A stretch of 64,000 nucleotides of DNA from Alternaria dauci (lineage: Eukaryota; Ascomycota; Dothideomycetes; Pleosporales; Pleosporaceae): the NCBI RefSeq assembly GCF_042100115.1, contig NC_091273.1, positions 434,001 to 498,000 of the forward strand, read 5' to 3'. Numbering within the stretch: position 1 is the stretch's first letter; each line of letters opens with the position of its first letter. Shown here piece after piece: positions 33,586-56,465 of the stretch. The notes beneath the pieces are model-generated. The model was not told the origin of the DNA. It ran no database searches and worked only from the letters and a program-made list of their open reading frames with translations. Both the position numbers and the translations under genes were made by a program.

Positions 33586-33762
33586 TTAGGATCAGAGTGG
33601 TGTGTGTTCTGGGTGGACGATCAGACAGACGATATGCGGGCACAAGTCTTCTAGGCAGATTACGATATAGTGAATCCTGAATTGAACGTATAGCTGTTTA
33701 GCACATGGTAAAACGATCCAACCCCGCGGACCCTCCGCCTCCGAAGTCGCTCTCCCAATATC

Positions 33763-34461
33763 TCAAGCCGGAAGGTGACAAACCGAAAAGCCCGGTGAAG
33801 TTTGCGACACAGTAAGATTCATGACTGATCTCGGCTTCTCCAGATAATCAATCATGAGCTGCGAGCAGTGCTTCGTATGCGTCAACGCCCTCACATGCAG
33901 ATCAAGATACTTCTGATCTTCCTGATAGCCGCGATGCAGCCGTCGCCACATGAGCGCGCAGTGCACCATGTGCTCCCGAATCTCTGTAAAGTAGGTATTT
34001 GGCGCGACCACGTCGCCCATTTCGTCTTCGGTAAGCAGGCGCTTGGCTTCGCGTGTTTCGTAGGCTTGCCATTTGGCGAGACGCTTGAAGTCGTCTAGGT
34101 TCTTGTGGTCGATGCATGGGTTTGGTACCCAGATGTTGGAGAGGACGTCGTAGGTGCAATTGTTTGCTCGGGCGGTGGTCGAATTTGTACCGCAGTCGAG
34201 GGTTCTCATGCGTGGTGGTTGTGGAGGGAATGGGCGGATGAGGAAGCCGAGGAGGGTTGTGATTGCTATCGCGAGTAGGAATATGAGAGCATGCAAGGCG
34301 ATGGTCTTTTTCCGGTCTCCGCTCTTGAAAGGCGAGGGTTTCCAGCTGTGTGGTTCTAGCAATAGTCGTTCCTCATGCGAACTGTCCTGCGAGCTCTCTG
34401 TCTCTTTGTCGTCATTGTATGATCGATCTTGAGACATGTTCTTGGATGGAAACCTGTTCAA
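33763..34461 (-). CDS. DUF3328/UstYa-like protein (copy 1)
   Basis: Intronless, 232 aa from the ATG at 34461 (a second ATG at 34437 is possible). One membrane segment at about residues 54-75 follows a cytosolic Ser/Glu-rich N-terminus. The luminal part carries DCGTNSTTARANNCTYD, IWVPNPC, and the two family motifs HMVHC (164-168) and HTKHC (195-199). In characterised fungal RiPP pathways, UstYa proteins are oxidases that cyclise or oxidise the peptide, probably through metal bound by the HxxHC motifs. It is closest to copy 2 at 46614 (shared FRPFPP/IRPFPP, EHM[VI]HCALMWRRLH). It stands about 9 kb from the precursor, with two unrelated genes between. Confidence 0.88.
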   Translation of the reverse strand: MNRFPSKNMSQDRSYNDDKETESSQDSSHEERLLLEPHSWKPSPFKSGDRKKTIALHALIFLLAIAITTLLGFLIRPFPPQPPRMRTLDCGTNSTTARANNCTYDVLSNIWVPNPCIDHKNLDDFKRLAKWQAYETREAKRLLTEDEMGDVVAPNTYFTEIREHMVHCALMWRRLHRGYQEDQKYLDLHVRALTHTKHCSQLMIDYLEKPRSVMNLTVSQTSPGFSVCHLPA

Positions 34462-35771
34462 TCATCAGTCAAACGTCGAAAGCCCAGTCGAGAATGAGGC
34501 GGATTACCGTTAGACTCCTGCAACCTACGAGCAGATTGTTGGATGTTTTGACAGACCGCGAACTCGCGAGCGTGAGCAAGATTGTCCTTTGGCACTAGCA
34601 TGTACTAGAAATGATACAGCTGAGAAAAGGTGTGGACCCCAGAATCATTTCCACAATAGAGTCCAAAGTTTGACGTAGAAACGCGATTGCCTATCTGCTA
34701 CATCAGTTCTTCTCATCAAGATGGAGAGTACAGTCAGCATGAGTAAGCTTTTCGGCTGCGGGCCGATGCGCTTTCTACTAAGATCCTGCTATGACTGTTA
34801 TCTGAGTAGACACTGCATCGTAACGACTAGATACCGATGTCTGTCTGAGAAGTGGCTTCGAGGTGCGCTCGGATCGTTGTCCCAGTGGCTGTTAGCCCAT
34901 CGGTGCAATCCGCAAACATCTCGCCCAACCTACAAGGTTCGTGATCAGGAACCACATTCTACCGTCCAGACACTGCTGAGCTTCATATGTGGTTCTGTAT
35001 AGGAATGATCTGTTGGTAGAAGATGAAGAATGCGATGCCTGTTATTACGGTTTCTGTTTGCAGTACGCGTACAGCTATCACGGCGCGTCATCGACGCGTT
35101 CCCTTCAGGCTGCGCGGGCATGATGCCGCACGTGTCTGAAAGTTGATAGGAGAGCCGTATATCGTATATATTCTACGCTCCATCTCCCTCAGTGATCGCG
35201 TTTGTCGAGAGGCATCCCAAGTCATTGTAAGTGTAGAAATCTGACTTGTGAAACAGTTGGTGGTGAAGAAGTGGCAGGACGACTGGGGCTCGGGCGCTGA
35301 AGTTGCGGGCCACTGCCCAAGCGGCGCCCCGCCCGCCAACCGCATGTCGACCAGCTTCGATCCCTTGACACTCGATCCCCGCTGCACGCGGCCAACAAAG
35401 TTTCTGTGCGAATGCGAAAAGACGATGCTGCGCACAGCACGACATCAGCAATGGAAGAAGCAATGCACAAAAGTTACGAAAGTGTCAACGCTACTACGAT
35501 GGGAACTGAAGCACAAAAGCGATAGAAGTTGCTCGACCAACCCCGGAAACCAGCAGCTCCAAAGGCAACATGCCTATGCTACAAAGACAAATAGCGACTC
35601 GCAGTCTTATCCTATCAGTTGACCTTCTTCTCTTGTGATGATAAACCCGACTCGACATCCCCTATCTTCCTATCGGCGTCTCGTGGCTTAAGCCAGGAGA
35701 ATCTGGCATCCATTTTGTCTTCCAACTATCAAATGCTTGTCAGCATGGCGCGGCGAACCACGCTGGACGGC
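34462..35771. other. Intergenic, 1.3 kb
   Basis: Upstream of UstYa-like copy 1 and downstream of the NACHT gene. Open frames at 35088-35622 overlap on both strands and look like chance. No gene called. Confidence 0.5.
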
Positions 35772-38700
35772 TCAATCACTTACGCCAGGGTATTTTCTGA
35801 AGATGATCCACACAGATATAGTCAGACCGAGCGTACCGAACATAAACACCAGATACCACCACCATGGTGGGTTATTCGCGAGGACGTTGACATACATGCC
35901 GAACAAGCCCTGATAGGAATTAGAGACAACACACAACCAATGATATGTTTCAATGCGGACCACATACCGAGACGAAAGTGAGAGGTAGAAAAATGAACTG
36001 CGGAATCAGCCCTGCATACGAAGAGGAACAATCTTTAGGTAGTTTACCGTAATCCAGCTCAGTCGTTTCATGCTTAGATTGAGCGAGGTAGATTTCTGTG
36101 TTTCTCTGATGGATGTCAGGTTGAATTCCTAACCTTCGTATTAGTTACGTCTAACAACTGTTACCCAGATCGCGACAACTAGGCTGATAGAAAAAAGGGC
36201 TACTTGGTGCTACACTATGCTGTAACGTACCAATTGAATGACTGTAGCTAAGTCCCTCTCTAACTTGTCGTATCTCGATTCGCCAGTACTTGCAAATTCT
36301 TCAATGGTATTAACGATCTCGCTAGCACCATCGTCCCCAAATCGACGAGTATTGTATGTTTTGCAAAGCCCTCGAATGACATTGACCTGTCTCTGGTATC
36401 GGCGGCGAAGATGGACCCACGTAGCTGCCTCCTTCAAGAGACGATCCAGAAGTCCCCGAAACTGTCCATTCGCTCTAAGAACATCTAAATGCTTCGTGAT
36501 TTGGATTGTGTTAGCAGCCACAGTCGTTGTCTTTGGCCAATCTTTGACGGTTCTGACTTACACAATGTAGCAAATGAGTATCGATTTGACCGAAATATGC
36601 TAGCCAACCTGTTGTCAGTTCGTCCAAGAGGTCCTGAAGGAATGCCATCCCACTAGATGGCATTGAGATATTGTTGAGGGTACTCCAGTGGTCCATACTG
36701 ATCCAACGGTCGTTGCCATTGAGATCCTGGTATATGTCCATGTCCCAGCTAATCTTCAGCTCTTTGAGATTGACTCCAAAGGGATCATGATCCTCGGACT
36801 GAGCCAGCAATGGCACACTCACCGAGATTCCATATCGTAGCCTTTGATGATGATCGGAACTAAAGAACATGTCGCCATGTGGATGTTTTGTGCGCCAGAC
36901 TGGATCTTGTTTAACCCAGAAGCTGGAATCAGAATATACCCTATGGTCTGGAATCAGCGAAGTGAAAAACGTGTGAGCAAGGTTCACCGATCTCAATACT
37001 CACAGCAATCTTCGTGATGTTCCCGGTATCGTGTGATTAGCCCACTTGAAATCTTCGGCTGAATACAAGCTCATTTTCTTCCTTTTCAGATCGTCTTCCA
37101 CAAGCTCGATGATGGCGGTTTTGGAGTCACTTCCCTGTTTACCCAAAATACAATCTTCTACGGATACATGTGCTGTATCAGCGGAGTGTTCTAATAGTAG
37201 ATCAATAGCATCGCTAAATTGACCTGCAACGGCTAATTGAATGGCAGAGCGCCCATCCGCATTCAACTGATCGACATCGACACCTGATTCAAGCGAGAGT
37301 CGTGCGATCGCCAGGTCCTTACGAATCACGCCGATATGAATCGGGGTATTTGAATTCCAGTCTCTAATATCTGGGCCAGCAGCCCTAAGCAGAGTACCAG
37401 CGAGCGAAGTCTGCTTCTTATCCAGTAGCAGTGTGAATGTCTTATGATCGTATCGGGCTAGAAGCTTCATAGTCTGGTCTTGGTTCTTCTCGATTGCGCA
37501 CCACAAAGGGGTGCGTCCTTTTGAGTCGATCTTAGCCGGACTAGTTGGTATCTTCTCCTTTCCCAGCAGGTACACTATGACCGATGTCAATCCTAGTTGT
37601 GCTGCAAAATGGAAGCCACTTCCGGGAACATTGAATGACTGGCTGTAACCAGGCTGCGGTGGCTGTACTGCTGATGCTGCCATTGCTTGACTTGCAGAAG
37701 CCACTTTGCCAGCATTCGTGAGGAATGAATCAATGAGAGGCTCTGGTAAGGAATTTTGCAGCGATTTGACGTGATCTGGCCAGTATTGTGTTGCGTATTG
37801 ATAGAAGCGGTATTTATCCAATCTCGACTCGAACTCGCCATCTGTTGTGCAGGGACCTTTGGTGAACTCATCGAAAGAAAGGTATGTCAGGCAGCATCTT
37901 GTGACCATATCTTGAGCGTTTGGGTACCAGGTGTTCAACGTCCGTAGCAGATAGTCTGAGGCTGTACGATGCATGTTTAATTGGTCGTTGATTTCCGCAT
38001 AAGAGACGAAGTGAACATGCTCGCACAGCCATGTGAGAAACTTTGTGGTTAGAAGACCGGCTGAATCCAACTTGTGGGAACCATCCTTGACTGCTAAAGC
38101 ATGTAGTAGCTCAGAGCCCTGTAAGGGTCTCTTTGCGAGCAGTAGCCACGCTAGAGCATCATGAACTAATTCTTGATCGTGTCTCCGAAGCTCTCTGATA
38201 TTTTCCATGTTCTTGGAATAAAGAGGCTCCAGGATGAAATCACTCGATAGCAACTGCTCTTTCAACAACACTGGGCTTCTTGTATCCATAAGTCCGTTCA
38301 TTATTAGCTTCGCAGCGAATACTCTATGAGCTAGTTAGCCAGTGTTCAGAAGTCGAAGAGATCTACTGACAGGCCATTTGAATCTTCCATCACCCGTCTT
38401 TTCACCTCTGCTTGCAATTCTGAATTATCGCGGACGAAATCGGGCAGAGTGCTCAGTCTTTGTGTGACGTAAGTATCCAAGTCTTGTTCAGTATCCCCGT
38501 CACTTATGTGAATCACTTCCACTTTCTGAGGTATCGTAATCGAGCTTGAACCATGAGTAGCTGTAAGACATAGCCAGAGGTTCTCTTGTGTCAAGCTTAC
38601 AAGCCCCGAGAACAAAAACGTGTAGGGTGGACCAGCCAGCTGATCATAGTTGTCGACAACGATATAGACCCGACGAAACGGCTTGACAATCCTGGGAAGC

Positions 38701-39191
38701 ATTTGTGACAGCATTTCTTCGAGTGATGGGGGTTGGGGCCTTTCGCGAAGGAGATCAAGGATGCAACTCTTTTCCCCTGCCATGTGATAATAACTCATAA
38801 GCAAGAGGCTTTGTCGTCCCAGTTGATACAGTATGTCTTGTAGTAGTAAAGGTGCGGTGCGTTCACCTGGGCTGTCTCCAACGTGAATGAAGGCAATAGC
38901 AGCCGACAAACTTACTGTTTGTTCTGCAAGTTTGCCCACGACTAAGGAGGCGGCCGTCGTTTTCCCTGAACCTGGCTTGCCCATGAGGAGAAGAGTACTC
39001 GGATCATCCTCCAGCCAGTCTTGAAACTGAGTAGTTTCGAAAATCCACTCCAACGTCCCGGATGCTCTTTGCGAGGATGCTCGTGCACGTATCGTCATAG
39101 AATCCTCGTCATTTTGTGAGTGAAGCCACTTCAACGTCTCATCCACTTCAGTTTCAGGCGATCGATAGTTTCCGGCCACTTGAAAATCCAT
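35772..39191 (-). CDS. NACHT-ankyrin protein with C-terminal CorA-like membrane domain
   Basis: Seven exons read as 39191-38371, 38323-37004, 36940-36562, 36491-36231, 36128-36048, 35997-35968 and 35909-35772, giving 1009 aa. Walker A is GKPGSGKTT (71-79) and Walker B YIVVDNYD (176-183), as in NACHT/STAND NTPases. Ankyrin-type repeats lie at about 470-650 (GRTPLWCAIEKNQ, NTPIHIGVIRKD, GRSAIQLAVAGQ). The C-terminus matches the CorA end: NLSMKRLSWITFIFLPLTFVS, then GLFGMYVN, then a second TM beginning at PPWWWYLVF. The CorA GMN motif is GMY here, so ion transport is uncertain. STAND proteins act as ligand-triggered switches in fungal non-self recognition. The exon-1 donor (GTCAGT) and exon-4 acceptor (GAAG) are the least certain joins. 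Confidence 0.8.
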
Positions 39192-39973
39192 GCTGGCGAT
39201 CTAGCGCACCAATAGTTAGCCGCACCGTCTATACTGCCTAGATATCGGTGCCAGAACGACTGAACACAGATCCTAAGCTTGCGTGGGAAACGTACCACGT
39301 CACAAGCTTACCTAGGCACGCCCGCAAGGCTGAAATGGACAGGTGCGTGATGTTGGGTAAGGCGAACACCGGTTGACAAAGACCAAGTGGAAGGCAAGCC
39401 CGCCTTGAAGAAAACACAACAATTCGCGCGCATAGATTCTGTAAGATAGGGGGCTAAGAAGGGGGTCAGGATGTTTATATCGTTCAGCCGTCTAGTGAGT
39501 GAGCTGAGGTGCAAGTCAGCTCCCTTGGCAGCTCCATCCACTCATCTGCAGGTGGCGCCCAACCACAGCGCAGCAACCGGCCTTCCACCGCGTAAGAAGC
39601 TTCCGATTGCATGTCTTATCTTCCGACCGAAGTAGTGCCCGTAATGTCGAATTGAGAACTTAAAGATCCCGCCAAGGCCGCACCTGAAGCGTGGCAAGAG
39701 GTTTCTATTTTCCTCATACATACAGCGCTCCTGTCGCAAGCACTCAAGTGGTGACAATCTGTTACACCAGTATATTTAGCATTCTTGGTACAAATCATGC
39801 GGCCCTCCCACGTACCCACTTCCTTGCCAGAGGCACAGCAAAACACCACCCAACGCCTTGCCATGCTACACTTACTGAGCAAAGAAGATGCAAATATCAA
39901 GTTAGATCAGAGGAAAAACACGACGACGAAATCTCAGAGGCGAGGCTGTGCAAGTGATCCATACACCCCACAC
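39192..39973. other. Intergenic, 782 bp
   Basis: Between the NACHT gene 5' end and the MFS gene 3' end. CTTACCTAGGCA at about 39308 resembles the intergenic palindrome seen elsewhere in the window. No gene. Confidence 0.5.
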
Positions 39974-41830
39974 TCACGGTCTCCTCCCTCTATCCTCCTC
40001 CCCAGGGCTCGCTGTTCCATTTCCGTTCATCGACCCATACCCATTGATTCCCTGGCTCCCACTAGCATTCGGCATAAGCGTCTCCCTAGCCTCTTCTGCC
40101 TCCTCTTCAATGTTCTCCCTTTGGATCTTGTGACTCTTGCGCCACACGAACGCCACGAGCGCGAGCCCAACAAGTAACGCCAAGCTAAGCAAGATGACAT
40201 TGACAGGCATAGGGTCATTGTGAAAGGTCTTGTGTGTAGCGGCATCGAGGGCAGATTGCGAGAAGTTGAGGATACCGGCGAGGCAGATGATGAGGCCGTA
40301 AACTTTGCCAAAGGTGGCGAAACCGAAGACTTTGGCGGAGTAGTCACTGGAAGAGATGTAAGTATAGAGTTTGAATGTGGCGGAGGGATGACTTACGAGA
40401 CTGCGGTGTAGTATAAAGGCCGGTACAGCACGAAGAGGACGATGTTGGCATACGCTGCCCATGTTTCTGGAATGATACCTAGCACTCCGATAGTTGTCGC
40501 GACGGTGACGAGTAAGGATAGCGTAAAGGTAGTGCTTGTGTTGTCGAGGAGCAGACCAATGAATGGAACTGACAAGACACCGCCGACCGGGAGTGCGACA
40601 TCGAAGAAATTGTTGATCTCGACCGCCTTGTCATAGTCGTGGAAAAGGTATGTGTACTGCGTCCGAATTGTGGCGACAAAGTAGTTGATACGCGTCATCT
40701 GGAGGACAGTGAACAGTGTAATGAGAATGAACCAAGGAGTGCGGATCTGCTGGCTAGCGGTGCGACCGTGTAATGCTCCCCATACACCCGAGATATTCTT
40801 CTTCTTGTCTTCCTCTTCGGCCTGCTTCTTGCCGTCTTTGGTGCCAAGCAAAGATGTAATTTCGCTGACGATGCTGTCGCGGTGTGCTCGTCGCGCATCT
40901 TGTATGCTTCGGACCGTCGCGGCATCTTCGATCTCGTCGTCTGAGTCGTGGATGACTTGCTCCTCCTCTGCGCTAGTAACGAGTTCACCAACTGTCTTGT
41001 AAGACACCGATGGCATAAACAGGGTTTGTACCGCGAGGATAAAGGCTGGAACGATAAGGTAGATGAGGAAGAACTTCTTGATCGAGAAGTTGCCGTCGGT
41101 GCCTTGGTAGATAAGTCGGTATACCAGAAAGATCGCGCTCGAAGTATCGAAAGCTCCGGTCAAAAGTGCCAAGATGAGTCCAGAGTATTGCGGGAACGTG
41201 TTGCTGAGCTGGAACGACGAGATGAAGATGAACGGTCCGCCCAACGCCATGAACAGATAACCGGGAATGAAACCATCAATTGGCAATTCCTTGGCGAACG
41301 CGAAAAGCAGTGCGCCAATTGTTATAGATATCGCACCAGTGATGCCGCACACGCGTGGTCCGAAGCGATCAAGGATTGTACCAACAGGAAGCGCGACGAC
41401 GTTCGTGGACACGGCGGCAATCGTAAACATGAGGTTGAGCCGGAGCTCCTGCTCATAGCAGACGTGTACATTTTGGTCCAGTTCCTCCTTTGTGCAGTAG
41501 TCTCTGTACACGTCCTCCTCGAGCAGTACGGGTTTTATCGCGGCGTAACCGAAGACGACACCGGCAGCGAATAGGCAGTAGATAACGGCGAAGAAGACCT
41601 GGACTGCGTGAGATTAGCTTCTGTGCGCCCATACCATGCACCATGTGATACATACGCAGTCTCTTCCACCTGGGTACTTCGAACGCGCCTATCGTCGGCT
41701 CTTCGCCAGTCTGCTCCGTCCATGTGCCGACAGGATTGAAGCTCATCTTCCGGTGCCTGGAGTCTGGGCTTGCCTCTCTGCTCCACGGCTCATGCTCCTC
41801 CATCGACGTCACTCGTTGGGAGAGCGACAT
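39974..41830 (-). CDS. Major facilitator transporter, Fmp42/SLC43-like
   Basis: Exons 41830-41656, 41603-40397 and 40346-39974 encode 584 aa. The first exon is a cytosolic tail. The second starts in TM1 (LQVFFAVIYCLFAAGVVFGY) and carries the inter-TM2/3 motif GTILDRFGPRVCG. A long acidic central loop (SAEEEQVIHDSDDEIED) separates the two six-TM halves. Yeast Fmp42 and animal SLC43 are the closest named groups. SLC43 members move large neutral amino acids; the fungal substrate is not established. Minus strand like the precursor gene, whose stop is 1.3 kb beyond this gene's start; whether it belongs to the cluster is unclear. Confidence 0.9.
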
Positions 41831-43170
41831 GGTGGCCTGAATTCCTCCTCTTCTACAATACAATATATCGGTATATCGCCCTCAGATCACAACAGGAGTT
41901 TGATCCGGAAGCTCTTCAGCTGGTGTCCAAACTTTATCCGGGTATGACGTCGCAATCTTTCTTTTCAGGGACCTTGGCGCGCAATTGGCCAACCAAACCA
42001 CTTCGACAAAAGCACGACGGAATCAGAGTCCGCAATGGAATATCCTGTGGCGCGCAAAAATATGGGAAGCAGGGTCCTATATAGCACAAGCACAGCATCG
42101 AATGGCGCAAAGCGGGGACTTGCTGGCCTGCAGCCCGGGTGCATGAAGGCGCTGACAATCCGACGCGCTGGTTCGCGCGTGATCACAAATGCTAGGCTGC
42201 GAGGATTTCCATTACGCAGTTTGATACCACGTGTGATATACGGGAGCGATGCGCTCATCATGACGAGTTGTATTCAATCGCTCGCGGCTCTTCGCACTCT
42301 AAAGCTTGCCTTTGTTGCGAAGATGGGATGCTTCGAAGCTTGCTGCTGGCTGCAGCCAATAGACGCGCGAGTCAGCCGCGGACAGGAGCTTTGGTAACCG
42401 TGCAGATGAGATGCCATCAAGCATCAAATTTTCTTCCTTTCACCTCCACATGTTCGCTGAACGCCGATGCACGATGAACACCTGCCGCGGGCGCTTTCCG
42501 ACGCAGAAACGGGCAGCTTTGCAAGAACGAGTGCGACTGCAGAGTTTTCTATTGGCTTGCAAGGGGTGGAAGTGTACATTTCCGCCGAAAAGGCCCAGAC
42601 TCTCATGGTAAACACTTGGCTATCGTCCCTACTATGTACATCGCTTGAATCTTCCAGGATCTGGCCTTGGAGTTTTGCTAGGGCTGACGTTCTGACTTCT
42701 GAAGCTGGTACATCCCAGATTACGATTGCCGGCCCCGCCGGACACTTCAAGCCGCGGACAAAGATGCACTTTGTACAAACCGATGATATCCATCCAGGTA
42801 TGCCATCGTCCAATGCGGTCGTAGATGCAACCTCGCTGGAAGATATGATTCCTGTTGATCTCGGTTAGATAACATAGTCTCTGCTTTTCGTTTCTCTTTT
42901 CAGTTCAAGAAAAGAGGTAAATGCATAACTCTTAGGCACGACCGCAATCAAGCAAAACAAGGTCAATTCCTTAAAGCACGACCAAACGAGTGGACTAGGT
43001 TACAAGAGACCTCGCATGCACCGCAACACCATGTCCAATCCTTTCTGTCCACCATCACCACCCTTCGTCCGAGTCTTCATCATTCATTCCAAGTCGTGAT
43101 CCCAAGCGATCCGGTATGCTGGGCATGAGTGTTCGCAGAGTCGACAATCTGTGAACTTGAGAGTATCGCT
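41831..43170. other. Intergenic, 1.34 kb, with a weak open frame
   Basis: Holds the MFS promoter and the precursor 3' region. A plus-strand frame at 42467-42868 (133 aa, ATG start, VEVYISAEKAQTLMVNTW) has fairly even composition, but a minus-strand frame overlaps it and I recognise nothing, so I do not call it a gene. Confidence 0.4.
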
Positions 43171-43613
43171 TTACTCAACGTCAACAGCATTGATCTTCTT
43201 CTGAGGTTCGCGCTTCTCAACGTCAACGGCGTTGATCTTCTTCTGACGCTTCTCGACGTCAACAGCATTGATCTTCTTCTGAGGCTCACGCTTCTCAACG
43301 TCGACGGCGTTGATCTTCTTCTGACGCTTCTCGACGTCAACAGCATTGATCTTCTTCTGAGGCTCACGCTTCTCAACGTCGACGGCGTTGATCTTCTTCT
43401 GACGCTTCTCGACGTCAACAGCATTGATCTTCTTCTGAGGCTCACGCTTCTCAACGTCGAAGGCGTTGATCTTCTTCTGACGCTTCTCGACGTCAACAGC
43501 ATTGATCTTCTTCTGAGGTTCGCGCTTCTCGACATCGACGGCATTAATCTTCTTTTGAGGTTCGCGCTTCTCGACATCGACGGCATTAATCTTCTTTTGA
43601 GGCATTCGCTTGG
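43171..43613 (-). repeat. In-frame tandem repeat array (36/42-bp units, eleven copies)
   Basis: DNA-level array within the precursor. From unit 3 on, 42-bp and 36-bp units alternate, making a 78-bp higher-order period repeated about four times with only a few base changes (for example GTCGACGGC versus GTCGAAGGC, the latter giving Phe). The first two units differ at more silent sites (GACATCGACGGCATTAAT spelling), so the 78-bp blocks look like recent duplications or gene conversion. All lengths are multiples of three, so copy number can change without a frameshift. Confidence 0.95.
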
Positions 43614-43783
43614 CGAGCCCAACTGAAGTGACAAGCTTGATTAGAAAACTTCCAACACTGTTGAATTTCTGTGATGTGCTTACTGGGTTCAACAAGGCCA
43701 AGGCCATTGGTGTCTGCAACAGGTAGTGCGGAGACGAGTGTGGTCATGCCCATCATGACGGAGAGGATGGTAGTCGACTTCAT
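43171..43783 (-). CDS. Kex2-processed repeat precursor, candidate RiPP precursor peptide
   Basis: Exons 43783-43684 and 43622-43171, with a 61-bp intron (GTAAGC...TTCAG), encode 183 aa. Residues 1-19 are a signal peptide (LSVMMGMTTLVSA). A short propeptide ends at IGLAKR (34-39). Then come eleven repeats: units 1-3, 5, 7 and 9 are 14 residues ([ME]PQKKINAVDVEKR), units 4, 6, 8 and 10 are 12 residues (QKKINAVDVEKR, with Phe for Val in unit 4), and unit 11 ends EPQKKINAVDVE at the stop. KR dipeptides are Kex2 sites, and the internal KK may be a second dibasic site. This is the form of fungal KEPs and of dikaritin-type RiPP precursors. An alternative is a mating-pheromone-like or structural secreted repeat peptide. 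The four UstYa-like genes nearby favour RiPP. Confidence 0.9.
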
Positions 43784-44797: not shown

Positions 44798-46240
44798 CTA
44801 GGCGGCACTAGACTTTCTCGATTCCTCGTCGAATGAATCAGGATCTCTCAACTTCTCTTCTTCGTCTCCAATCACGAACGGGTCAAATCCTTCACCTTCC
44901 ACCTGCCCATAGCCTTTCTTGATGCTGGCCCGCTTCCCAAACATCATCATGCCTACCGCCAGCATCTCGATGAAAACTACCGCTGCCCAGAGCCATCGCA
45001 AGGTATTGCTCTTTCTTCCATGCAAGAGTCCAAGGAAGACATTGAGATTCAAAGCGAGGAAGAGTGCGCGGCCGAGATAGATGTGTACGAAGGAAGATCT
45101 AGTCCGCTCTCCGTACTTTATGTAGTTGATGTGGTGTTTGTAGCCGAATGTGATCTGGATCGGCACTGCGACGGCGATCGCAAGACCAATCAGCTTGTGT
45201 ATCGAAGTGAAAGTCCCAATCTTCAAAGTGTTAGCGAGACATAAATACTGTCAACGTCACTGAATACATACCTGGAATACATGCGTGCTTTTGGCAACCC
45301 CAATGAGACAGCCAACCAGTAGACCAGTGGCAGAGAGTGCTTGCACGATCCAATGACCACGAAAAGCCCACGTCAGTCCGCTGCGGATCAAGAGGATTCC
45401 AAGACAGTTGAGAACGACTGCAGAAGATAGTATCGCGCCATGCGCGTCCCACGTGTTAATATGCGAGCGGGTCGCTGGTGTATCAAGGCTTGAAGAGCCT
45501 ATTGCATGAGTTGATGAGCGATCTGCAGTGACTATAGGATACTCTTCGGCCTGGTTCGTGAATATCGCTTGCGCCATGTTGAGGAACGTAAGACCTTGGT
45601 CACAGTCAGAAAGCTCTTTTTTTGGGATGTGAGAGTTATAGCTTACCATAATCTGTATGCATATCCATCCGCAGGTTTGGGTTGTTGGTTCTGGTCTGCT
45701 GTGCGGAGCTGCTTGCGAATAACCACGATTGTTGTTCGCTGGTAGCATTCAGTGGACCGAGACCGACCATCTCGCACGAGTGGCAAGTAGCCTGTAGAAT
45801 ATGATATCCGTTCCGGTCAATCTCCGTACTGTGAACGTGAACTTGTCTCTGGTTCATGAGTGGGTGTGGTGCGTCATGTCCAATTGTTGAGCGCAACGAC
45901 AAGACAGTGTCTTTGCATTCTTAGTATGTTTTTTCATGGGTATTGGAGAATTAGATAACTCACCACCTTCTTGTTCTCCTGGCCATAACACAAACATCAA
46001 AGCTCGATCCATAACTTCTCCAATTCCGAAGGCTGCCCAGCCGCTACGTTGGTGGAAGTTGACGGAAAACGTCATAAGCAAATCATGTCCTCTTTCATGC
46101 TGTGACTTGAGAGTCTTTACTGCCATGCATGCATCTGAATGCAGCGCTGGGTTGATGTGGCATATCTGTACCGGCTCTGATCCTCGGCAGACGTTGGTCA
46201 CAGCCAGAAGGGATGTGAGGAAAAGGTTGAGTCGCTTCAT
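44798..46240 (-). CDS. DOMON-cytochrome b561 transmembrane redox protein
   Basis: Four exons, 46240-45964, 45919-45647, 45594-45272 and 45220-44798, encode 431 aa. Residues 1-19 are a signal peptide. Residues about 20-175 resemble the extracellular haem-binding DOMON/cellobiose-dehydrogenase cytochrome domain (WAAFGIGEVMDRALMFVLWP, then HVHSTEIDRNGY). Five to six membrane segments follow, with the four b561-type histidines: His235 (DAHG), His264 (GHWIVQ), His299 (IHKLIG) and His337 (VHIYLGR). Such proteins pass electrons across a membrane to an outside or luminal haem domain. Sitting 374 bp from a divergent UstYa-like gene and next to the precursor, it may supply electrons to peptide oxidation; that is inference. 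Confidence 0.9.
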
Positions 46241-46613
46241 AGTTGCTTGAAATTTTGGCGTCTGGCGAGAGTTCCAATCTGACGTTTCTCTTTTGGATCG
46301 AATGCGGAGCGAAAGATAGTGGAATACAGAACTGAATCATGGAAGCTAACCCGAAACGGTCAACTGTGGGGCTGTAGTCAGCGTCTCACGAAACCACCAC
46401 AGCTGACTATACCAGGACCCCTGCGCAAGCACTCGATGACGACCGAGTATTAGATTTCGGATGGAAGCGATACGAAGCTGTTCTTGGGAAACGAGCCACT
46501 GGACACTTACATACACCCGCTCGACTTCTCAGTTTTCCGATCTCTTTCCGCCACGGCTTCTTCTTCTTTTGTCTGGATTTATCCCATCCTCAACGCGCCA
46601 GAGCGCAAACGGA
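46241..46613. promoter_or_regulatory. Bidirectional promoter of b561 and UstYa-like copy 2
   Basis: 373 bp separate two divergent start codons, so the two genes share a control region. That is a common sign of co-regulation in fungal clusters. No site was identified with confidence. Confidence 0.5.
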
Positions 46614-47351: not shown

Positions 47352-48245
47352 CTTGTTCAATGGAGTTGTATTCCTAGACAGCGGAGGCATTTGGGAACGT
47401 AGCCAGCGATTTGCGTAAATGAAAAGCGAACCTTATGAAGAATTGATATGAAAAAAAAACTAGGAAACTTTGAGCAACAGCCGTGTGACCTGTGCGTGGA
47501 TTTGCGCAGAGTGTGAGTTCGTTGTTTCTGACAATAAGGCGCGGCCTCGGTACCCTGCGCAACGTGTCAAGCCGAGGTCGGCGATACCACTAAAGTAAAT
47601 GGCGAAGAAGACGCGCAGGAGATTTCGATATGTGTCGAGTTGTGGAGGAGTCAGGGGCGGTCGAAGTTTAGTTGGTGTGTCGCAGATGGGATGGTAGGTG
47701 CGGGGCTTGGGAGTGGGCTCTATTTTCTCCGGTGCGTCCCTCGGAGCCGCTGGTCAAGGCGACGTCGCGCTCAACGCCTGCCGGCCCGCCGGTTTTGCCA
47801 TCACCCAACCATGAATTTATCTCGGTCGAAGTCGGTAATTCGAGTCTGACAGCATGTACTGATGGTTTGCGCAACGTTAAAAAGTAGTAAGCAATGCTGC
47901 GCCCTTTGCTTTGTAGAATGCCAGGTCCGCGCCACCGCAGGTTGGAAGCAGCTCCCTAGGCGGACACGCCCATGCTATCCACTGCTGGTGATGACACTAC
48001 TGTCAGCGAAGGGAACAAAGACACCAGATGCCATGAGAACAGGTAACGTTCGTGTCTTACGCGTGTGATTACTACACCCTTGTAGTAAGCTCCTTCATCG
48101 CCCGAGCTCCGTCACTGGCTGCGATGGGTGGAGACCGTGGAGTCAGTTCACATCGAGTACTGGCATGCTCGTTCCCGTATTGCGGCTCGAACTATCTCAT
48201 CTGAGAACTAAGACTTCACTCGACAAATTTTGAACGTTGGCACAC
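47352..48245. other. Intergenic, 894 bp
   Basis: Between UstYa-like copy 2 and the MFS gene. Overlapping short frames on both strands at 47640-47887 look like chance. No gene. Confidence 0.5.
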
Positions 48246-49914
48246 ATGGAGAAGCTGCGGATAGCTGAGGATTCGGCCTCACAATCATCGAATCAGGAAG
48301 GAAGTTTGATTCTACCTTTCATGGCTTCTGAGGGTGGCTTTACACCCTCGAGCGCCTTTATGACGGATGCCGGAACCCTCGCAGATTCATCAAAGCGAGG
48401 ATCTCGAAAGCTACCCACCACATCACTCGTAGCCATGGCATGCGGATTCGGAGGGTATGTCACACATCAAAATGCGAACGATATTCTTACAGCTAATCTG
48501 AGCCTGCAGCTTACAGATTCTTTGGTCCACGATCTTCTCCTATGGCTCATCCTACCTGTTTTCTCTCGGTATATCCACAACCCAGTCATCACTCATCTGG
48601 GCAGTTGCACCACTGTGTGGCTCAATCATTCAACCTATCCTGGGTGTCATCAGCGATCGATCACGTATTTCATGGGGCCGACGAAGACCGTTTATACTTG
48701 GCGGGGTGGTGTCTACAATCTTTGCTGCCACAACATTAGCCTGGGCTGAGCCAATTTCAGTCGCGGTTTGCACACTTTTCGGCATAAGCAACGCCAACGG
48801 ATGGTGGGGAACTACTACGCGGACTGTGACTATTCTGGCCATTGTCATTCTCAACATTTCGATCCAGCCCCTCCAATTGGCCCTGCGCTCGCTGAATGTC
48901 GACATTTGTCCGCGAGAACAACAATCCATGACAAGCGCATGGGCAAGTCGCTTTACTGGATTGGGAAACATCATTGGCTATGTTCTGGGCTCTTTGCCGC
49001 TGCCTTGGATCTCTAGCGATTACGAAGCCATGCGTTTTCGGTATATGGTTTACTGGACTACCTTCGCACTCATCGCCACATCATTCATCACTTGCTACTA
49101 TACCGAGGAGGAGGATCCGTCACTGTCGGCGTACGAGTCAGGTTCCGAGCGCCCGGTCTATCGAATCTTCCAAAACCTCATTGATGGCTTCTCAAAAACT
49201 TCCAACAGGATAAGACACGTCTATCTCGTCCAATTCTTTTCTTGGCTGGGATGGTTTGGATTCCTGTTCTATAGTACAAGCTTCATCGGACAGCTCTACG
49301 TCGACGAGCAAGCAGGAGACAACGCCAAGATGAGCTCGTCAGTCAAAGATTACGGGATGAGGCTAGGCGCTAGAGCGAATTTGCTTTTCGCCATCGTGGC
49401 TCTAGCAACGAATATCATTTTGCCAAGACTCTCAGGCGTATTGAAAACGATGCTTTCGGGGGCGAGAACCGACGGTGGAAGGACGCAAGGCTCTTCTTCT
49501 ACACTGGGTATTATCTGGAGTTTCGGTCAGGTGCTCTATGCCGTGAGCGCTCTGTCCACGACAGTGGTGTCTTCAAGTACGACAGGGACGTTTATAATCG
49601 CCATCGTAGGTATCTCATGGGGTGTGACTCAGTGGGTACCATTCGTCATCATTGGGGAGGAGACAGCAAGACACTCCACTGACGAAGAGACTCCTAAAAG
49701 AGAGGATGACGATACATGGAGTGTGGTACAAGGTGGAAGAATCATCGGTTTGCACAACACTGCCATATCTTTACCGCAGATCGTCGCGGCTCTTGTTAGT
49801 AGTGCAATCTTCTGGGTTGCGCAAAACCTAGGTAAAAGTCGTGCCATAGTATGGGTGATAGGCTGGACCACGGTTCCTGGAGCAATAGCTGCTTGGCTTG
49901 CGTTCTTGATGTAA
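48246..49914 (+). CDS. Major facilitator transporter (SUT/glycoside-permease-like)
   Basis: Exons 48246-48454 and 48510-49914 with a 55-bp intron (GTATGT...TGCAG) encode 537 aa. The start is the first ATG; the frame upstream has none. About twelve membrane segments, the motif WGRRRPFILGG after TM2-TM3, and the pair ISWGVTQWVPFVIIGEE resemble the fungal/plant sucrose-transporter-like MFS branch. In this place it could export the peptide product or take up a sugar or other solute; sequence cannot decide. It runs tail-to-tail with the bANK gene, the stops being 86 bp apart. Confidence 0.88.
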
Positions 49915-50000
49915 GCAAGTCGCCAATTCGAAATCGACGTCGACATAGGTGATTCATCACGTAGCACATTCGCAATCTCAATACTTGGTATCAATTTTCG

Positions 50001-50985
50001 TTACGACTTGAATTCCATGTCTGCTCCAGCTCTTATTAACATGTCTACGATCTCAACGTGGTCATGCTCTATTGCTACATGCAATGGCGTCTCTCCTGCT
50101 ACATTGATGGCATTGACATTGACGCAATGCGATAATGCGAACGAGATCAGGGACGGGTGGCCGGACTGCGCAGCGAGATGCAGGATGTTGTTTCCATAAT
50201 CATCTACAATGTAGACATCTGCCCCATTCTCAACCAGAAGCTCTGCAATACTATCACGGCCTCTTAGTACTGCTTTCTGCAAGGCATTGAGGCTTGGAGG
50301 TAAGGTAGAATTTGAGGAGGAAGTAGACGCCGATGACGGGACCGTGGAGCGACCCTAGTCAAGATTGTATTAGCAACCCTGTATGAATGGACAAGAAGCA
50401 AAGGAGGCCGTAGCAGACATACAAACAAGATAATATCGTTCTCTAGATCCGTAAGGGGCGTGGTTAGATCGAATAGGTTGGCTCTTTCGTTCTTTGTTCG
50501 TGAGGCTATGTTGCTGTTTTCTTGATTGGACATGGACGAACTGCTTCCCACTTCTCCTGTATTGCCGAATATGAAATTTTGGGCTGAAGATTCGTCCGGC
50601 GATGCTACTGCTGGAACATTGATCGTTTCCAAACTAGGTAAAAGTGCATCTGGAGCTGCAGGGTTGATCGAATCTCGACGTGTTTGCTTGGATTGTGTCG
50701 AGTCTTTTGGCGGCGTTCGACAAGGCTGTCGCCTTTCCTTGGGTGTTGTGGGTGGGCTACCTGATATGCTCCGGTTGAACACCTCTAGTTGCTCCAATCG
50801 GCGCTTGATATTGCGGCCTGTGAAGTTAGTTATATATCGAATGTCTTTAGAGTAAACGACCTACGATAGTTGCGCTGCGCTATCCTATTCTGTACTCTTC
50901 TTCGCTCATTTGCATCGGTCAATGTTCTCCAATCCTCGTCTTCTTCTTGTCGTGACATGATTCCTCGGTCTTCTTTTGGTGACAT
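50001..50985 (-). CDS. bANK transcription factor (bZIP-type basic region plus ankyrin repeats), TOXE-like
   Basis: Exons 50985-50865, 50817-50423 and 50354-50001 encode 289 aa. The first intron (47 bp) lies inside the basic region; splicing gives NERRRVQNRIAQRNYRRNIK (26-45), the NxxAQxxxR DNA-binding signature. Only one or two leucine heptads follow (RLEQLEVF), so there is no full zipper. The middle is Ser/Pro-rich. The C-terminus has three ankyrin repeats (about 197-289: NNILHLAAQSGH, ETPLHVAIEHDH). This combination defines bANK proteins such as TOXE, pathway regulator of HC-toxin genes in Cochliobolus. The likely role is local activator of this cluster. The second start at MSRQEEDED (50958) cannot be excluded. 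Confidence 0.88.
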
Positions 50986-51663
50986 TGGGTTCCGTGATGT
51001 TTGCGGCTGATACCAGTGAGACGGCAGCCAGTTCAACCGGGGCGCTTATTATTCCAACGTCAGTTGTATGGCTTGGATTCAGTAGGTATGCCTGCCATGA
51101 GCACGGCCGGATGCTCTTTGGGCGATCCGATTTGCGTCGCCGTTCGATCTGCATCATGCAGGTGTTCATGGTGTTAGAGTCAAAATGATCTTACTAAACA
51201 TGTAATTGAGAATTCGTGCTAGCCTTCATGGAGAGTCTTTTGGTTTCGCTTAACTCAAGGTGGGGGCTTTCCAGGTATACGCAGCAGTCGAAGCGCGGCG
51301 TAACTTCTCGGACCGATGCATGGCGAACCCGTACCCGGACCTCTAACAATGCATTCAACATGCCTGGACCATGTCATTCCGCCTTGCATGCACCGCCGGG
51401 TTACATCGCGGATGGACTCGGATTCATCGGACAACGTATTAGCAGATCAGCTTGCGAAGCAAGCAGAGTCGCTGAGTAAGATGCGTCAGCGTCAGTGTTT
51501 CCCCGCAACATCACTGCCAATCTTGGAAGGCAAATTTTGACAGGCAATGGAGACAAATCTCCCTATCATAAATAACAAGTACCTGGCAGAGGGAACCTTA
51601 ATCGAAGTTCTAGTCCAATCCGTCAACACTACTAAAAATTCCGCATGCATATATGATATTGCG
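50986..51663. other. Divergent promoter region, bANK and UstYa-like copy 3
   Basis: 678 bp between two divergent start codons. It contains TGAGTAA at 51473-51479, the reverse complement of the TTACTCA words upstream of the precursor. An upstream ATG at 51547 is in frame with copy 3 and would lengthen it by 39 residues. Confidence 0.5.
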
Positions 51664-52371
51664 ATGCCAGCCTTCTCACTTTCACCGAAACCTAGCGAAA
51701 ACAACTACCCACCAAGATCACTTTCACACGGCTTGGAAGAGCAAGACACACTACTACAAAACGCCTGTTCGGAAAAACCTTGGCCAAAGACTCGCCGAGG
51801 CATTGCGTACGCCAACCTAGTGGCTGTGGCCCTCTTCCTCTTCACAGTCGTTGTTGGATCGCTCGCATGGCTAGCTGTATCTGCAACACAGCAAACCGAC
51901 GAAGCACCGACACCGTCGAAGCCATACACCGACTGTGGTAGCAACTACTCAACAGCAATTGCAGCCGGGTGTATATACGATATTGTTGGTCCCCAATGGA
52001 CGCCGCCAGAATGCTATAACGCCGACCTCTCTAAAGAATACGCCGCGAAGATTCCAAGGCCGATGTTCTTTCGTTGGGAGAATCTCACGGAGCCGATACC
52101 AGAAGATCCTGTGGAGATCTCAAAACATGACACAGTCTGGACATTCGACAAGTATCATACGGTACACTGTGTTTATATCCTGGAGCTTGCAGCACTAGCG
52201 GCATCGATGGCTTTTTCCGGCAAACAAGGTGTTTCTTTGAATCATATTGCGGCCAACTCCGCACATACAAGGCATTGCACCGAATTGCTGTCAGGTAATA
52301 TGACCTTCCCGGGTGAGACGGAGATTCATCGTCCCGGCTCCGCACTTCGCTGCAAGGGACTAAAGTCCTGA
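51664..52371 (+). CDS. DUF3328/UstYa-like protein (copy 3)
   Basis: Intronless, 235 aa from the ATG at 51664. TM at about 50-72 (ANLVAVALFLFTVVVGSLAW). Luminal features: DCGSNYSTAIAAGCIYDI, QWTPPEC, HTVHC (165-169), HTRHC (201-205), and NYS/NLT/NMT sequons. More diverged than copies 1 and 2, with different residues around both motifs, which suggests a separate step or subfamily. Expected role as for copy 1: oxidation of the precursor-derived peptide in the secretory pathway. Confidence 0.9.
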   Translation: MPAFSLSPKPSENNYPPRSLSHGLEEQDTLLQNACSEKPWPKTRRGIAYANLVAVALFLFTVVVGSLAWLAVSATQQTDEAPTPSKPYTDCGSNYSTAIAAGCIYDIVGPQWTPPECYNADLSKEYAAKIPRPMFFRWENLTEPIPEDPVEISKHDTVWTFDKYHTVHCVYILELAALAASMAFSGKQGVSLNHIAANSAHTRHCTELLSGNMTFPGETEIHRPGSALRCKGLKS

Positions 52372-53808
52372 GATAACGGTCAACCTGTACCTAATAAAAC
52401 TTACTCATTCATAAGATCTAGATCATTTCGTACGATTTGGTGAAACACTAATGTACCGTAAATCCATCCGACGTGAGTTTGATGGAAGCTTGTGGAGGAT
52501 TCTAAGGCTTGTCTGCGCCTAGACTTCCGTTCAACGTGATACATACCTAGGCTCTCACGACATTGCCGACAACTTGGCTGCCGCGGCAAGTTTCAAGTCA
52601 TGGGTGCCTGTGAGAAGTAAGCATGCACAACATACGTCTGCGCAGGAAAGTACCATGCTATCTCAACGGGAATTTGAGAGTCACTCTACACAAAACACGC
52701 ATGCAGGCAGGTGACCATTCCTGCAGCGTCGTCCCCGCATGTCATCAATCGTCGCAGTTGCTTTCAAGGGTATCAGCATCGAGATCTTGCAGGAGCTCGT
52801 GTTCCCCATGTGACGACGATACCGAAGATGACCCGTGATAGATGAGCCACTCGCAATTCCCGCAATGCAATCTACAATACGCAAGGACAAGGCTGTGGGC
52901 CGAGAGCCATATCAACCACACCTACATGCAGGTGAGTAAAACCACGCTGGTCGGACCGATACTCGGAAACACCGACGGGTTTCCCTATGCAAGACTTCCA
53001 AGGTTTGCTAAGACGGCGCCGGTGAAGATAAGCCCACTAGGCAGGCTTGATTTACGCCCACATATTTCCACCATTGCTGAAATGTGGAGTACTGTATGAA
53101 CATCTCGTCGTCTATCAGTGCTAAGATTACCGAAGCGTCTCAGGGCCACGTAACTCTCCACAACCCCGCCCCCAGATTACTGATGCTGGTTCCACAAGCT
53201 GACGATCTGATGGGCTCCAAACAGTCGATCCCTGGCAGCTGCATAGAAAACGACGTACACATTTCCAGATAGAAAAAGGCAAGAGGCCGAATCGAGACGC
53301 CAGAAATGGAAACAAGGAAATCTTAAACAAGGACCGAACCATGCACACCACTACCTAAGTATACAGTGAGACGCTGAATTCTTGCAGCTACGGATCTGCG
53401 CTTCGGGCCGAAGCGCGACGCACTTGCCCGTTGCTGCAATCCATGCTGCACTTGCCGTACGATGTGTGATCAAAACTTAATCTAGCCGCATCTTACGCCA
53501 CACCGCCTACTTCCATCTAAATCTCTACTCAGCAACGGCTTACTACATGATAGTCATTAGAGCATTTCCATCGCCTCAACGTTCCGCTCCCGTAGTAGGT
53601 GTTGCGTGTCGCGACGTGATCATGTGAGCGGCTTCTGGTTTTGCTCGGGCTTGTAACATGCGAGACGAGCGTTCAAGTCCATCGTCGAACGTTCCAAGAC
53701 CACGGTGTCTGTTTCAATCCACCAAAACAGCTCTTCCATCAGCTTACACGATCGGCGAAAATCAGAGGACGATTATCAGGATTCGATTGGATCAATAAGG
53801 CAATCGAG
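52372..53808. other. Intergenic, 1.4 kb
   Basis: Between UstYa-like copies 3 and 4, both plus strand. No coding signal seen. The open frame of copy 4 extends back to 53641 but the extra residues do not look coding. Confidence 0.5.
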
Positions 53809-54513
53809 ATGATGGGAGCTTTTCTGACGAAGCCTCTACGGCACCCCAGTGGAAAAGAATATGTTCCCATACCCAACCCTGAATCCGGCACCCAAGAGAA
53901 CCATCACAGCAAAGAGAGACGCAAGCGCCTACCGAAAGGCGTCGTCATGGTCTGTCTTGCCGCTATCCTGGTACTGCTTATTCCAGTCTCCTACTTCCTC
54001 TTTGCCGCAAGTACACGGAATGGCGCATTCAACCACGCCGGCCTGCCCATCCAGCATGACGATAAAGGCATATTCATAGCCTGTCCGGAAGATCCTTCAT
54101 CGGCACGGAAATCGGGTTGTTCTTTCGACCTTCTCGCCAACGGCTGGATCCCCGACCCTTGCTTCGACGCAACTATGCACCACGATTTTGTCGATGGCAA
54201 GGATTATGGCTTCTTCGAGGACCGGAATGGCAAGCACCGAGTACATCAAAATACGGTCATGGAGGGAGATAATAGCAGATATCCAGACGGGCTCTGGGTG
54301 ACGTTTGAAGAACACCACACGCATTGTCGTTACTTGGTTAATGGATCCATCAGAGCCGTCTCGCGACCCCATGCACCTTTCCTCGATGTTTACCTGGATA
54401 GGGACCATATGATGCATTGTTATGGTGTACTTGGAGAACATCAGGACTCTGATCATATTGAGACATATGTCAAGGCTTTCTTCGAATCGCGCAAGTGTTA
54501 CATTCGTGATTGA
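53809..54513 (+). CDS. DUF3328/UstYa-like protein (copy 4)
   Basis: Intronless, 234 aa from the ATG at 53809 (a second ATG follows directly). TM at about 44-66 after a basic stretch (KERRKRLPKG). Luminal features: ACPEDPSSARKSGCSFDL, GWIPDPC, HHTHC (169-173) and HMMHC (200-204). The most diverged of the four: its Cys-rich block starts with ACP rather than [DS]CG, and a longer, charged insert (GKDYGFFEDRNGKHRVHQ) precedes the first HxxHC. The family motifs and spacing nonetheless hold. Likely the far-right oxidase of the cluster. Confidence 0.87.
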   Translation: MMGAFLTKPLRHPSGKEYVPIPNPESGTQENHHSKERRKRLPKGVVMVCLAAILVLLIPVSYFLFAASTRNGAFNHAGLPIQHDDKGIFIACPEDPSSARKSGCSFDLLANGWIPDPCFDATMHHDFVDGKDYGFFEDRNGKHRVHQNTVMEGDNSRYPDGLWVTFEEHHTHCRYLVNGSIRAVSRPHAPFLDVYLDRDHMMHCYGVLGEHQDSDHIETYVKAFFESRKCYIRD

Positions 54514-55301
54514 GCCGGATCGGACTCGTGGACTGTCTGTTGTTGGCGGGTTAGCAATCTTTAGCTTAGGAACAATCGCAAGCCACTGTGTTTGAACTCC
54601 GCAACAATTGGTGCTTGATCTTCGTAGCCGGTGTACTGGCCATATTCTGTCGCTATGACATCCAACAGCCTGATAAAATGGGTCGAGAGTGTTGATGGGA
54701 TGATGCTGCCCGGTGTGCCGATAGGCGGGCGAAGGAGGCGGGGCTGTTGAAGCGGGCGTCGGGCAACTTCAGCGCCGGAACGTCAAAACGCCGAAATACC
54801 ATGCAGGGCATTTCTCCCCTATCACTTCACCAATGATACCAACTCTACCTAGGTACAGATGCTCTACGCGACGTCCACATTTTCGCATCTCCCAAGTGGA
54901 TGGTGCAGTATGTTCGCGCAGCCCGACAGGAATCCGCCTATAGCGGGCCGTGATGGTCCCATGCTCACCGATGAAGAAACACATAACACCGCCTACGAAG
55001 ATCAATGGTGCGTATCATCGCCTATGAGTCACATCTGCACTCCAATCCCAGAACGTGTTTGTCTAGAGAAAATGTTGGGGGTGAACCATACTTTTGCGAA
55101 TGGCAGATATGTCGAAAGCTGATACGTTGCATCCAGCCACCTTTTGATGACTGGCCCGCATGGCTTCAGCTGAACGCGTCCATCTTCAAAACAAGAATGG
55201 TTGATCGCAGAAGGCTGTCGCGTGACTCCTCTATATGAACAAGATGACCCTGGCTCACAGGCGACATTCTTTCCATACATAACAACATCTTTTCCGAAAC
55301 G
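54514..55301. other. Intergenic, 788 bp
   Basis: Carries a second exact TACCTAGGTA palindrome at 54846-54855. A plus-strand frame at 54859-55122 (87 aa) could be an upstream exon of the next gene, but no splice join was convincing. Confidence 0.4.
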
Positions 55302-56465
55302 ATGCCCTTCGCTTCCCAGGTATTCATTGACCACCAGCTTAACCAGAGACCCTTGTCTGTTTACAACATTTTCCAAGGAGTAGGCTGGCGATGGATATTT
55401 TTCGCGCGCATATATGTACAGTTGAATCTTTGGACGCTGCAGCTGATCTATTCATATACGTTTCTTTACGTTGGCTATATATATCTCCTTGTATGGTTCC
55501 TAGCGTACGGAAAAGCTGGAAAGATTCCTACGATGAATGATGACATACTGGTATGGAAGCCGAGACATGACCACAAGGCACTGAAACCAAAAAAATCTGA
55601 CAGTAGACAGAGTATATTTTTGGACAAAGTCTCATCCTCGGCCAACCCTCGATGGGGGTTGTTTTGGGTGTTGTACTATCTGTTTACGCAGGACCAACTC
55701 GGTTTTATTGCCAACTATACGATGGCCTGGAGTTTGGAGGCAAACATTGATTCGGAATTGGTCATCTTTGTGAACAATGGCCGTCCCTTTATAGTCCCTT
55801 GCTCGAGAACAGCAGAGGACAAGGACCTTTTGGAGCAGATTCGCATCTTCTACGACTTGCAGCGTATAAGATATGGCATGTTCGAATTGATTGGCGCAAA
55901 GTCGATCCAAAGAATCGATGTCGCCAAGGTCAGTGTCTGATCCCGAGTTTACCACGTTATGTTGCTCATCTGACCATTTCGCCTACTTTAGTTGCATAGC
56001 AGGGAGATTGTGGGCAAGCGGCTTAAAGAATCGCTTGATCTAGGACTGCTTGGATCTTATGGTCGTCAGGCTCATTACTTCGAGAAACCATCTGAACTGA
56101 CAGGAGACCATATACAGAAAAGACTCATTCGACAGCAGGTCCTGACAACGTTAGGCCAACAGAAGAATGCACTCAATATCATTCGTAGTTGGGATCCGCA
56201 GATCACTACTACGGTGATTCTCTTCCCAATTGTGCTAAGTCTAATCATATCGATTGTCTGGTCTGTTGTGGCGTCGGCCAAATTCAAAGCGGATGTTCAG
56301 ACTAGCACGCAGACTGGCTTCACAATCGGTAGCTACGTCGTAACCGCGGGTATCTCTCCAAGACACTCTTCTGGACCACTGGACGAATGGCTAATCTTGG
56401 CAGGTGCTCTGTTAGTCGCCTTGGTCGCATTCCTTGATGGCAAGGTCAACGGTATGGAGCATTGA
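55302..56465 (+). CDS. Membrane protein of unknown function
   Basis: Exons 55302-55928 and 55992-56465 (63-bp intron, GTCAGT...TTTAG) encode 366 aa. One or two membrane segments lie at about 29-68 (ARIYVQLNLWTLQLIYSYTF, then GYIYLLVWFLAYG) and two near the C-terminus (ITTTVILFPIVLSLIISIVW and LILAGALLVALVAFLDG). The central part is charged and soluble. It looks like one of the large fungal family of uncharacterised proteins with a membrane-anchored C-terminus. The N-terminus may be incomplete. It sits at the right edge of the UstYa-like group, same strand as copies 3 and 4; membership in the cluster is open. Confidence 0.65.

Follow-up and report, generated by a model that had tools for sequence, protein, structure and literature searches.

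The window analysed here, a stretch of 64,000 nucleotides from Alternaria dauci (contig NC_091273.1, positions 434,001 to 498,000, forward strand), carries at 33763-56465 a gene cluster in which a secreted Kex2-repeat precursor is accompanied by four membrane proteins with paired HxxHC motifs (U1 to U4), a DOMON-cytochrome b561 protein (CYBDOM), transporters and a putative regulator. Precursor, oxidase candidates, transporters and regulator lie closer together than chance would predict, in a real and partly conserved cluster. The locus is probably one for a ribosomally synthesised and post-translationally modified peptide (RiPP), and a slightly better than even probability is given to a RiPP pathway in which aliphatic C-H bonds are oxidised by the predicted copper enzymes, with CYBDOM possibly supplying electrons. 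The new points are a separate HxxHC class, an aromatic-free core and an embedded CYBDOM gene. The genes concerned are the following.

43171-43783, minus strand: Kex2-repeat precursor, ATG at 43783, stop at 43171; 183 aa, one presumed intron
33763-34437, minus strand: U1, HxxHC-pair membrane protein of 224 aa, sharing 52% identity with U2 across 176 residues
46614-47351, plus strand: U2, HxxHC-pair membrane protein, 245 aa; divergently oriented to the CYBDOM gene
51547-52371, plus strand: U3, HxxHC-pair membrane protein, the closest to Pfam UstYa (23.6 bits, cut-off 25)
53809-54513, plus strand: U4, HxxHC-pair membrane protein
44798-46240, minus strand: CYBDOM, DOMON (CDH-cyt)-cytochrome b561 protein, 428 aa, three presumed introns

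Structure of the precursor and its repeat

The secreted Kex2-repeat precursor proposed at 43171-43783 in a preliminary description of this DNA was borne out. A hydrophobic N-terminal segment (residues 5-23) and a short leader are followed by 11 units split by Lys-Arg (KR), with 11 KR sites in all, so that the protein displays the secretion signal and the near-identical dibasic-flanked units of Kex2-processed repeat proteins (KEPs). The intron would extend from 43683 to 43623, with gtaagc and cttcag at its ends and a ctaat branch-like site. The units follow the pattern [MP/EP]QKKINA(V/F)DVE with KR between them, and comprise EPQKKINAVDVE (six copies), MPQKKINAVDVE (one), QKKINAVDVE (three) and QKKINAFDVE (one). 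Tandem Repeats Finder reported a 78-bp higher-order unit for the region (5.4 copies, 92% matches). The core contains no Tyr or Trp, Phe occurs in one of the 11 units, and the computed [M+H]+ of linear QKKINAVDVE is 1143.637.

Across the 11 copies of the 27-nt core eight positions vary, seven of them synonymously, at third positions, and one non-synonymously (Val to Phe). Pairwise comparison of the copies gave a proportion of synonymous differences (pS) of 0.59 and of non-synonymous differences (pN) of 0.008; the synonymous excess has a binomial P of ~7e-5 against an expectation of 19.5% synonymous, counted by sites among repeat copies that are not independent. Because seven of the eight variable sites are synonymous, the repeat is, as its codons indicate, under selection as a peptide and is no DNA-only repeat. 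Two more long frames are held open by the repeat, at 43083-43640 (186 aa, minus strand) and 43129-43623 (165 aa, plus strand), and it is the third-position variation that picks out the precursor frame among the three.

The precursor is single-copy in the genome, where four matches correspond to its two exons and to two weak matches in the other frames of the repeat. Two diverged homologues, P0002 (221 aa, nine units) and P0003 (106 aa, four units), retain the sequence of the signal peptide and, with Asp replacing Asn, that of the unit. All 24 units of the three precursors match [XP]QKKI(N/D)A(V/F/I)DVE and, beyond the N/D and V/F/I positions, differ only in the X-Pro dipeptide in front (MP, EP or SP). 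A decayed or chance repeat protein, lying in an ordinary clustering of membrane genes, would agree with the two other open frames and with a precursor known here from sequence alone, but the predominance of synonymous variation and the retention of signal peptide and unit in diverged homologues have already largely refuted this explanation, which is highly improbable.

The HxxHC membrane proteins

U1 to U4 had been described as DUF3328/UstYa-like proteins with paired HxxHC motifs. The paired motifs are present in all four, separated by 31-36 residues and preceded by one strong hydrophobic segment, while the DUF3328 name does not hold, as none of the four passes the cut-off of PF11807 (UstYa/DUF3328), even the best match, U3, staying below it (E 5.4e-5). 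U3 also has a second, weaker hydrophobic segment overlying its first HxxHC motif. Matches over the PF11807 cut-off were found in 13 other regions of the genome. In a hand-chosen alignment of 27 sequences (the four window proteins and 23 of 36 homologues, P0006 and P0022 being left out), the residues conserved in every row are C, A, C, D, W, P, C and those of both HxxHC motifs.

Profile comparison of the U1/U2 family (37 rows) with U3, U4 and three paralogues returned a probability of 99.7, or 98.7 with HxxHC masked. Against canonical UstYa from the same genome, represented by four open frames of which some are partial, the value was 1.1 for U1/U2 and 71.6 for the U3/U4 set, both dropping below 1 with the motifs masked; reversed canonical sequences gave 0.1 with U1/U2. 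P0039, which has a frame-shifted end, was excluded from these comparisons and from the tree described below. The results with and without masking show U1 to U4 to be one family whose kinship with UstYa rests on the metal motif, and the four proteins constitute a separate class, sister to the PF11807 proteins.

The AlphaFold2 model of U1 (38 sequences; mean predicted local distance difference test score, pLDDT, 80.8) comprises a membrane helix at residues 42-67 and HxxHC motifs on helices 153-172 and 185-199. The model of U3 is of lower confidence (pLDDT 65.7) and presents its elements in the same order, so that both predicted structures place the paired motifs on neighbouring helices that follow a single membrane helix. 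In the DUF3328 enzyme CctR, residues of such motifs bind two coppers and the need for O2 and Cu(I) was shown; its family includes hydroxylating, halogenating and cyclising enzymes (PMC12435403). Compared with CctR, as described in the text of that paper, and with PF11807 copper enzymes, the U class shares the type-II topology, the placing of HxxHC(x)nHxxHC on a pair of helices and further Cys residues in the domain. It differs in bearing, behind the membrane helix, the N-terminal signature C..A..CxxD..W.P..C, and in that its profile link to canonical UstYa hinges on the HxxHC motifs.

Comparison with dikaritins

The preliminary description took the locus for a RiPP cluster of dikaritin type. 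A ribosomal-peptide locus with oxidases is still the best reading; membership of the dikaritin class is not supported, since PF11807 is missed (by all four proteins) and the core contains no Tyr (none in any unit) or Trp. The likenesses to the ustiloxin, phomopsin, asperipin-2a and victorin systems are a signal peptide with repeats flanked by Kex2 sites, several membrane proteins that each bear two HxxHC motifs (all four here) and a major facilitator superfamily (MFS) transporter. In contrast to those systems, the oxidases stay under the PF11807 cut-off, CYBDOM and a regulator of the bANK class are present, and the original five-gene definition of dikaritins, as quoted in PMC12048977, includes tyrosinase and methyltransferase genes, neither of which was found among the 30 open frames and two spliced proteins of the window scanned with Pfam (160 frames of at least 100 aa were listed). 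That the locus is nonetheless a true dikaritin, with U1 to U4 as merely divergent UstYa proteins that form a side-chain ether ring as in ustiloxin and phomopsin, would account for the paired motifs behind a membrane segment, the repeat precursor and the transporter. This is improbable on account of the tyrosinase and methyltransferase not seen among the scanned frames, the missed cut-off and the composition of the core: with neither Tyr nor Trp and with Phe confined to a single unit, an aromatic ether cyclisation of the dikaritin type is unlikely. The cyclic product proposed earlier is unsupported and purely conjectural.

Clustering in the genome and conservation in Pleosporales

At least eight U-class genes were detected at E 0.001 or better in the 34.9-Mb, 10-contig genome: four share 21 kb of the window, a pair lies at C6:2664-2666k, and single genes lie at C4:338k and C7:309k. 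The C6 pair (region 2655001-2673000) lies between a polyketide synthase (PKS) open reading frame (ORF) with an ABC-transporter ORF and a nonribosomal peptide synthetase (NRPS) condensation ORF, with a canonical UstYa match ~17 kb off. At C4:332001-350000, canonical UstYa and the U-class gene stand beside a P450, an acyltransferase and a subtilase, and no KR-repeat precursor was found there by pattern; at C7:300001-318000 the two are no more than 2 kb apart, near an S28 peptidase. The adjacency to canonical UstYa on C4 and C7 and the position of the C6 pair between PKS and NRPS ORFs tie the U class to biosynthetic loci. Besides the window, 20 fetched stretches were scanned (19 covering the 13 canonical UstYa regions and the remaining U-class loci, one around an AltA1 gene), and a KR-repeat precursor was recognised by pattern only in the window; single frames were read, three alike units were needed, and 34 small loci (L001-L034) stood outside the rescan. 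AltA1-family matches in the genome number two.

The precursor and the CYBDOM gene sit between U1 and U2. U1 is 92% identical to its counterpart in Alternaria burnsii, 85% in A. atra and 85% in Curvularia clavata. In a tree of the U1/U2 family (37 rows), a U1 clade of 19 sequences (support 99/98) and a U2 clade of 17 (90/79, not strong) each contain Alternaria, Corynespora and Plenodomus, with P0038 outside both on a long branch; U1 and U2 are old paralogues. Their locus tags are three apart in Corynespora (BS50DRAFT_576041/576044) and two apart in Plenodomus (NX059_006011/006013), on parent sequences equal in size. DOMON relatives occur in Alternaria and also in Periconia, where the DOMON protein and a U1-like protein come from parent sequences of equal size (193056), presumably one and the same contig. 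U1, U2 and the DOMON gene therefore look linked in other Pleosporales, and the shared clades, close tags and equal-sized sequences point to a core of the locus that is old and inherited rather than to a strain-specific toxin island.

This arrangement bears on a further explanation, in which the precursor gives rise to a signal or surface peptide, secreted in linear and unmodified form, while U1 to U4 and CYBDOM modify another small molecule, the two being mere neighbours. Some 78% of the 7878 KEPs reported in a survey have no DUF3328 neighbour (PMC7329392), the core is hydrophilic and aromatic-free, and the C6 proteins, lying in a PKS/NRPS region, suggest that the class may act on other scaffolds. 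The explanation does not readily accommodate a precursor and a DOMON gene placed between U1 and U2, whose locus tags are close in other genera, and none of the 30 window frames scanned with Pfam revealed a PKS, NRPS or terpene core gene. It is possible, and clearly less probable than peptide oxidation.

The DOMON-cytochrome b561 protein

The DOMON-b561 protein of the preliminary description was confirmed, with CDH-cyt over its cut-off (55.6 bits against 27), b561 just under (22.1 against 23), and His 232, 261, 296 and 334, which on our own reading would be the b561 haem ligands, invariant in seven of seven sequences. The splice model is supported by two Alternaria orthologues of 429 aa with which it aligns end to end, and three Alternaria orthologues carry precomputed PF03188 and PF16010. 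Domain pair and candidate haem His residues are as in CYBDOM metalloreductases such as Arabidopsis HYP1, from which the window protein differs in its peptide gene cluster, its fungal CDH-cyt-type DOMON and an activity that is predicted only.

The CctR paper (2025) leaves open the source of reducing electrons for binuclear copper peptide oxidases in the oxidising lumen, its authors hypothesising an accessory donor of electrons or Cu(I) (PMC12435403). An Arabidopsis CYBDOM is described as a trans-membrane carrier that takes its electrons from cytosolic ascorbate and reduces Cu(II) (PMC10784544). As CctR needs Cu(I) and the plant protein reduces Cu(II), CYBDOM is proposed to serve U1 to U4. A gene for a trans-membrane electron carrier beside putative copper enzymes and a peptide precursor makes the question of the electron source testable.

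Proposed pathway and its weighing

We infer every processing and enzymatic step of the pathway as follows. The precursor would enter the secretory pathway, where Kex2 would cleave after each KR and a carboxypeptidase would trim the KR. A Ste13-type dipeptidyl aminopeptidase, by analogy with alpha-factor processing, would then take off the X-Pro dipeptide (MP, EP or SP), such that both unit types converge on one decapeptide, QKKI(N/D)AVDVE, and all units on QKKI(N/D)A(V/F/I)DVE. In the same compartment, one or more of the type-II proteins U1 to U4 would oxidise aliphatic C-H bonds of the peptide through the binuclear copper site of HxxHC(x)nHxxHC, yielding a dehydrogenation, a hydroxylation or a C-N or C-O cross-link such as Lys to Ile, Val or Asp. 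CYBDOM would carry electrons across the same membrane and keep the copper reduced, an MFS protein would serve export or supply, and the bANK protein regulation. In phomopsin biosynthesis, reported gene inactivations point strongly to DUF3328 enzymes as the source of dehydro-Ile, dehydro-Asp and dehydro-Pro (PMC10880069), so that the lack of aromatic residues does not disqualify a core. As the core offers Ile, Val, Asp and Lys but no Tyr, an aryl ether is less likely than dehydrogenation, hydroxylation or a Lys cross-link.

Several points weigh against this pathway. It is, together with the modification of the peptide, deduced from genes alone; U1 to U4 fall short of PF11807, and the link of U1/U2 to canonical UstYa is weak and is lost on masking. 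In two of 38 aligned U1/U2-type sequences (P0006 and P0022, which bear JGI names only), the second His of the first motif is Tyr. Homologues of the precursor turned up solely on short contigs that offer no known context, and the homologue search returned no named Pleosporales protein as a precursor. No word stood out as a shared motif among the cluster promoters. Eight CDH-cyt loci were found in the genome, of which only that of the window has a UstYa-type gene within 100 kb, the other seven being farther than this from every UstYa match, which leaves a general donor role for UstYa enzymes unsupported in this genome. Finally, according to the KEP survey Tyr is present in 65.6% of the repeats that neighbour DUF3328 and in 38.2% of the others (PMC7329392), and the Tyr-free core is more like the latter. 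The same survey recognised DUF3328 by hmmscan at 1E-5, and with U3, the best match, at 5.4e-5 this locus would by that criterion probably have been counted among those without DUF3328.

Loci with the HxxHC class under the PF11807 cut-off are likely missed by RiPP mining built on that profile. A more far-reaching proposal, tentative and on the whole rather unlikely, is that of a Pleosporales-wide RiPP pathway outside PF11807, in which a separate HxxHC class of copper enzymes would oxidise the aliphatic carbons of an aromatic-free Lys/Ile/Val/Asp/Glu core and a dedicated CYBDOM of the same cluster would be the electron donor that DUF3328 biochemistry calls for. If true, such a pathway would be invisible to PF11807-keyed surveys.

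Regulator, transporters and neighbouring genes

The remaining genes of the interval are listed below.

50001-50958, minus strand: bANK-type regulator, basic region and ankyrin repeats; 280 aa, two presumed introns
39974-41613, minus strand: MFS transporter 1 (MFS1), PF07690 37.1 bits; exons and start only partly resolved
48246-49914, plus strand: MFS transporter 2, sugar-type, PF07690 40.9 and PF13347 36.8 bits; one presumed intron
~37000-39200, minus strand: NPHP3/NACHT-like ankyrin gene, PF24883 71.3 bits, Ank_2 52 bits; domain-bearing frames
55248-56465, plus strand: membrane protein with several segments, right edge of the interval; no Pfam match above cut-off

The regulator agrees with its earlier assignment to the bANK class (a bZIP-type basic region lacking a zipper, plus ankyrin repeats), which includes ToxE and Apf2 (PMC4109984): ankyrin repeats are clear (over cut-off), and a basic region is seen as a sub-threshold match (15.7 against 27.6 bits) that covers only positions 6-32 of the 64 of bZIP_1. 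The TOXE-type regulation that had been suggested was upheld as to this architecture, shared with ToxE (HC-toxin) and Apf2 (apicidin F), but not as to binding sites. The tox-box ATCTCNCGNA shows no enrichment (38 matches at up to one mismatch, 58.7 expected), nor does the Api-box (one match, 2.75 expected), and in a further difference from those systems no NRPS was seen nearby in the scanned frames. Three exact tox-boxes occur, at 19809 (outside the cluster), 52082 (inside U3) and 41605-41614 (minus strand, 5' edge of the MFS1 frame), only the last of which could be a promoter element.

An MFS transporter is present as previously claimed, but Pfam found two rather than one. The NPHP3/NACHT-like ankyrin gene, absent from the preliminary description, lies inside the interval between U1 and MFS1. 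The GC-poorest 2-kb steps are 32001-34000 (0.465) and then 36001-38000 (0.466). To the left of the cluster, 17269-30079 is occupied by ordinary genes, encoding a zinc dehydrogenase, a kinesin, a peptide methionine sulfoxide reductase and an amidase, and just to the right a TRP-like channel gene (58134-61886; PF06011, 116 bits) marks a probable boundary.

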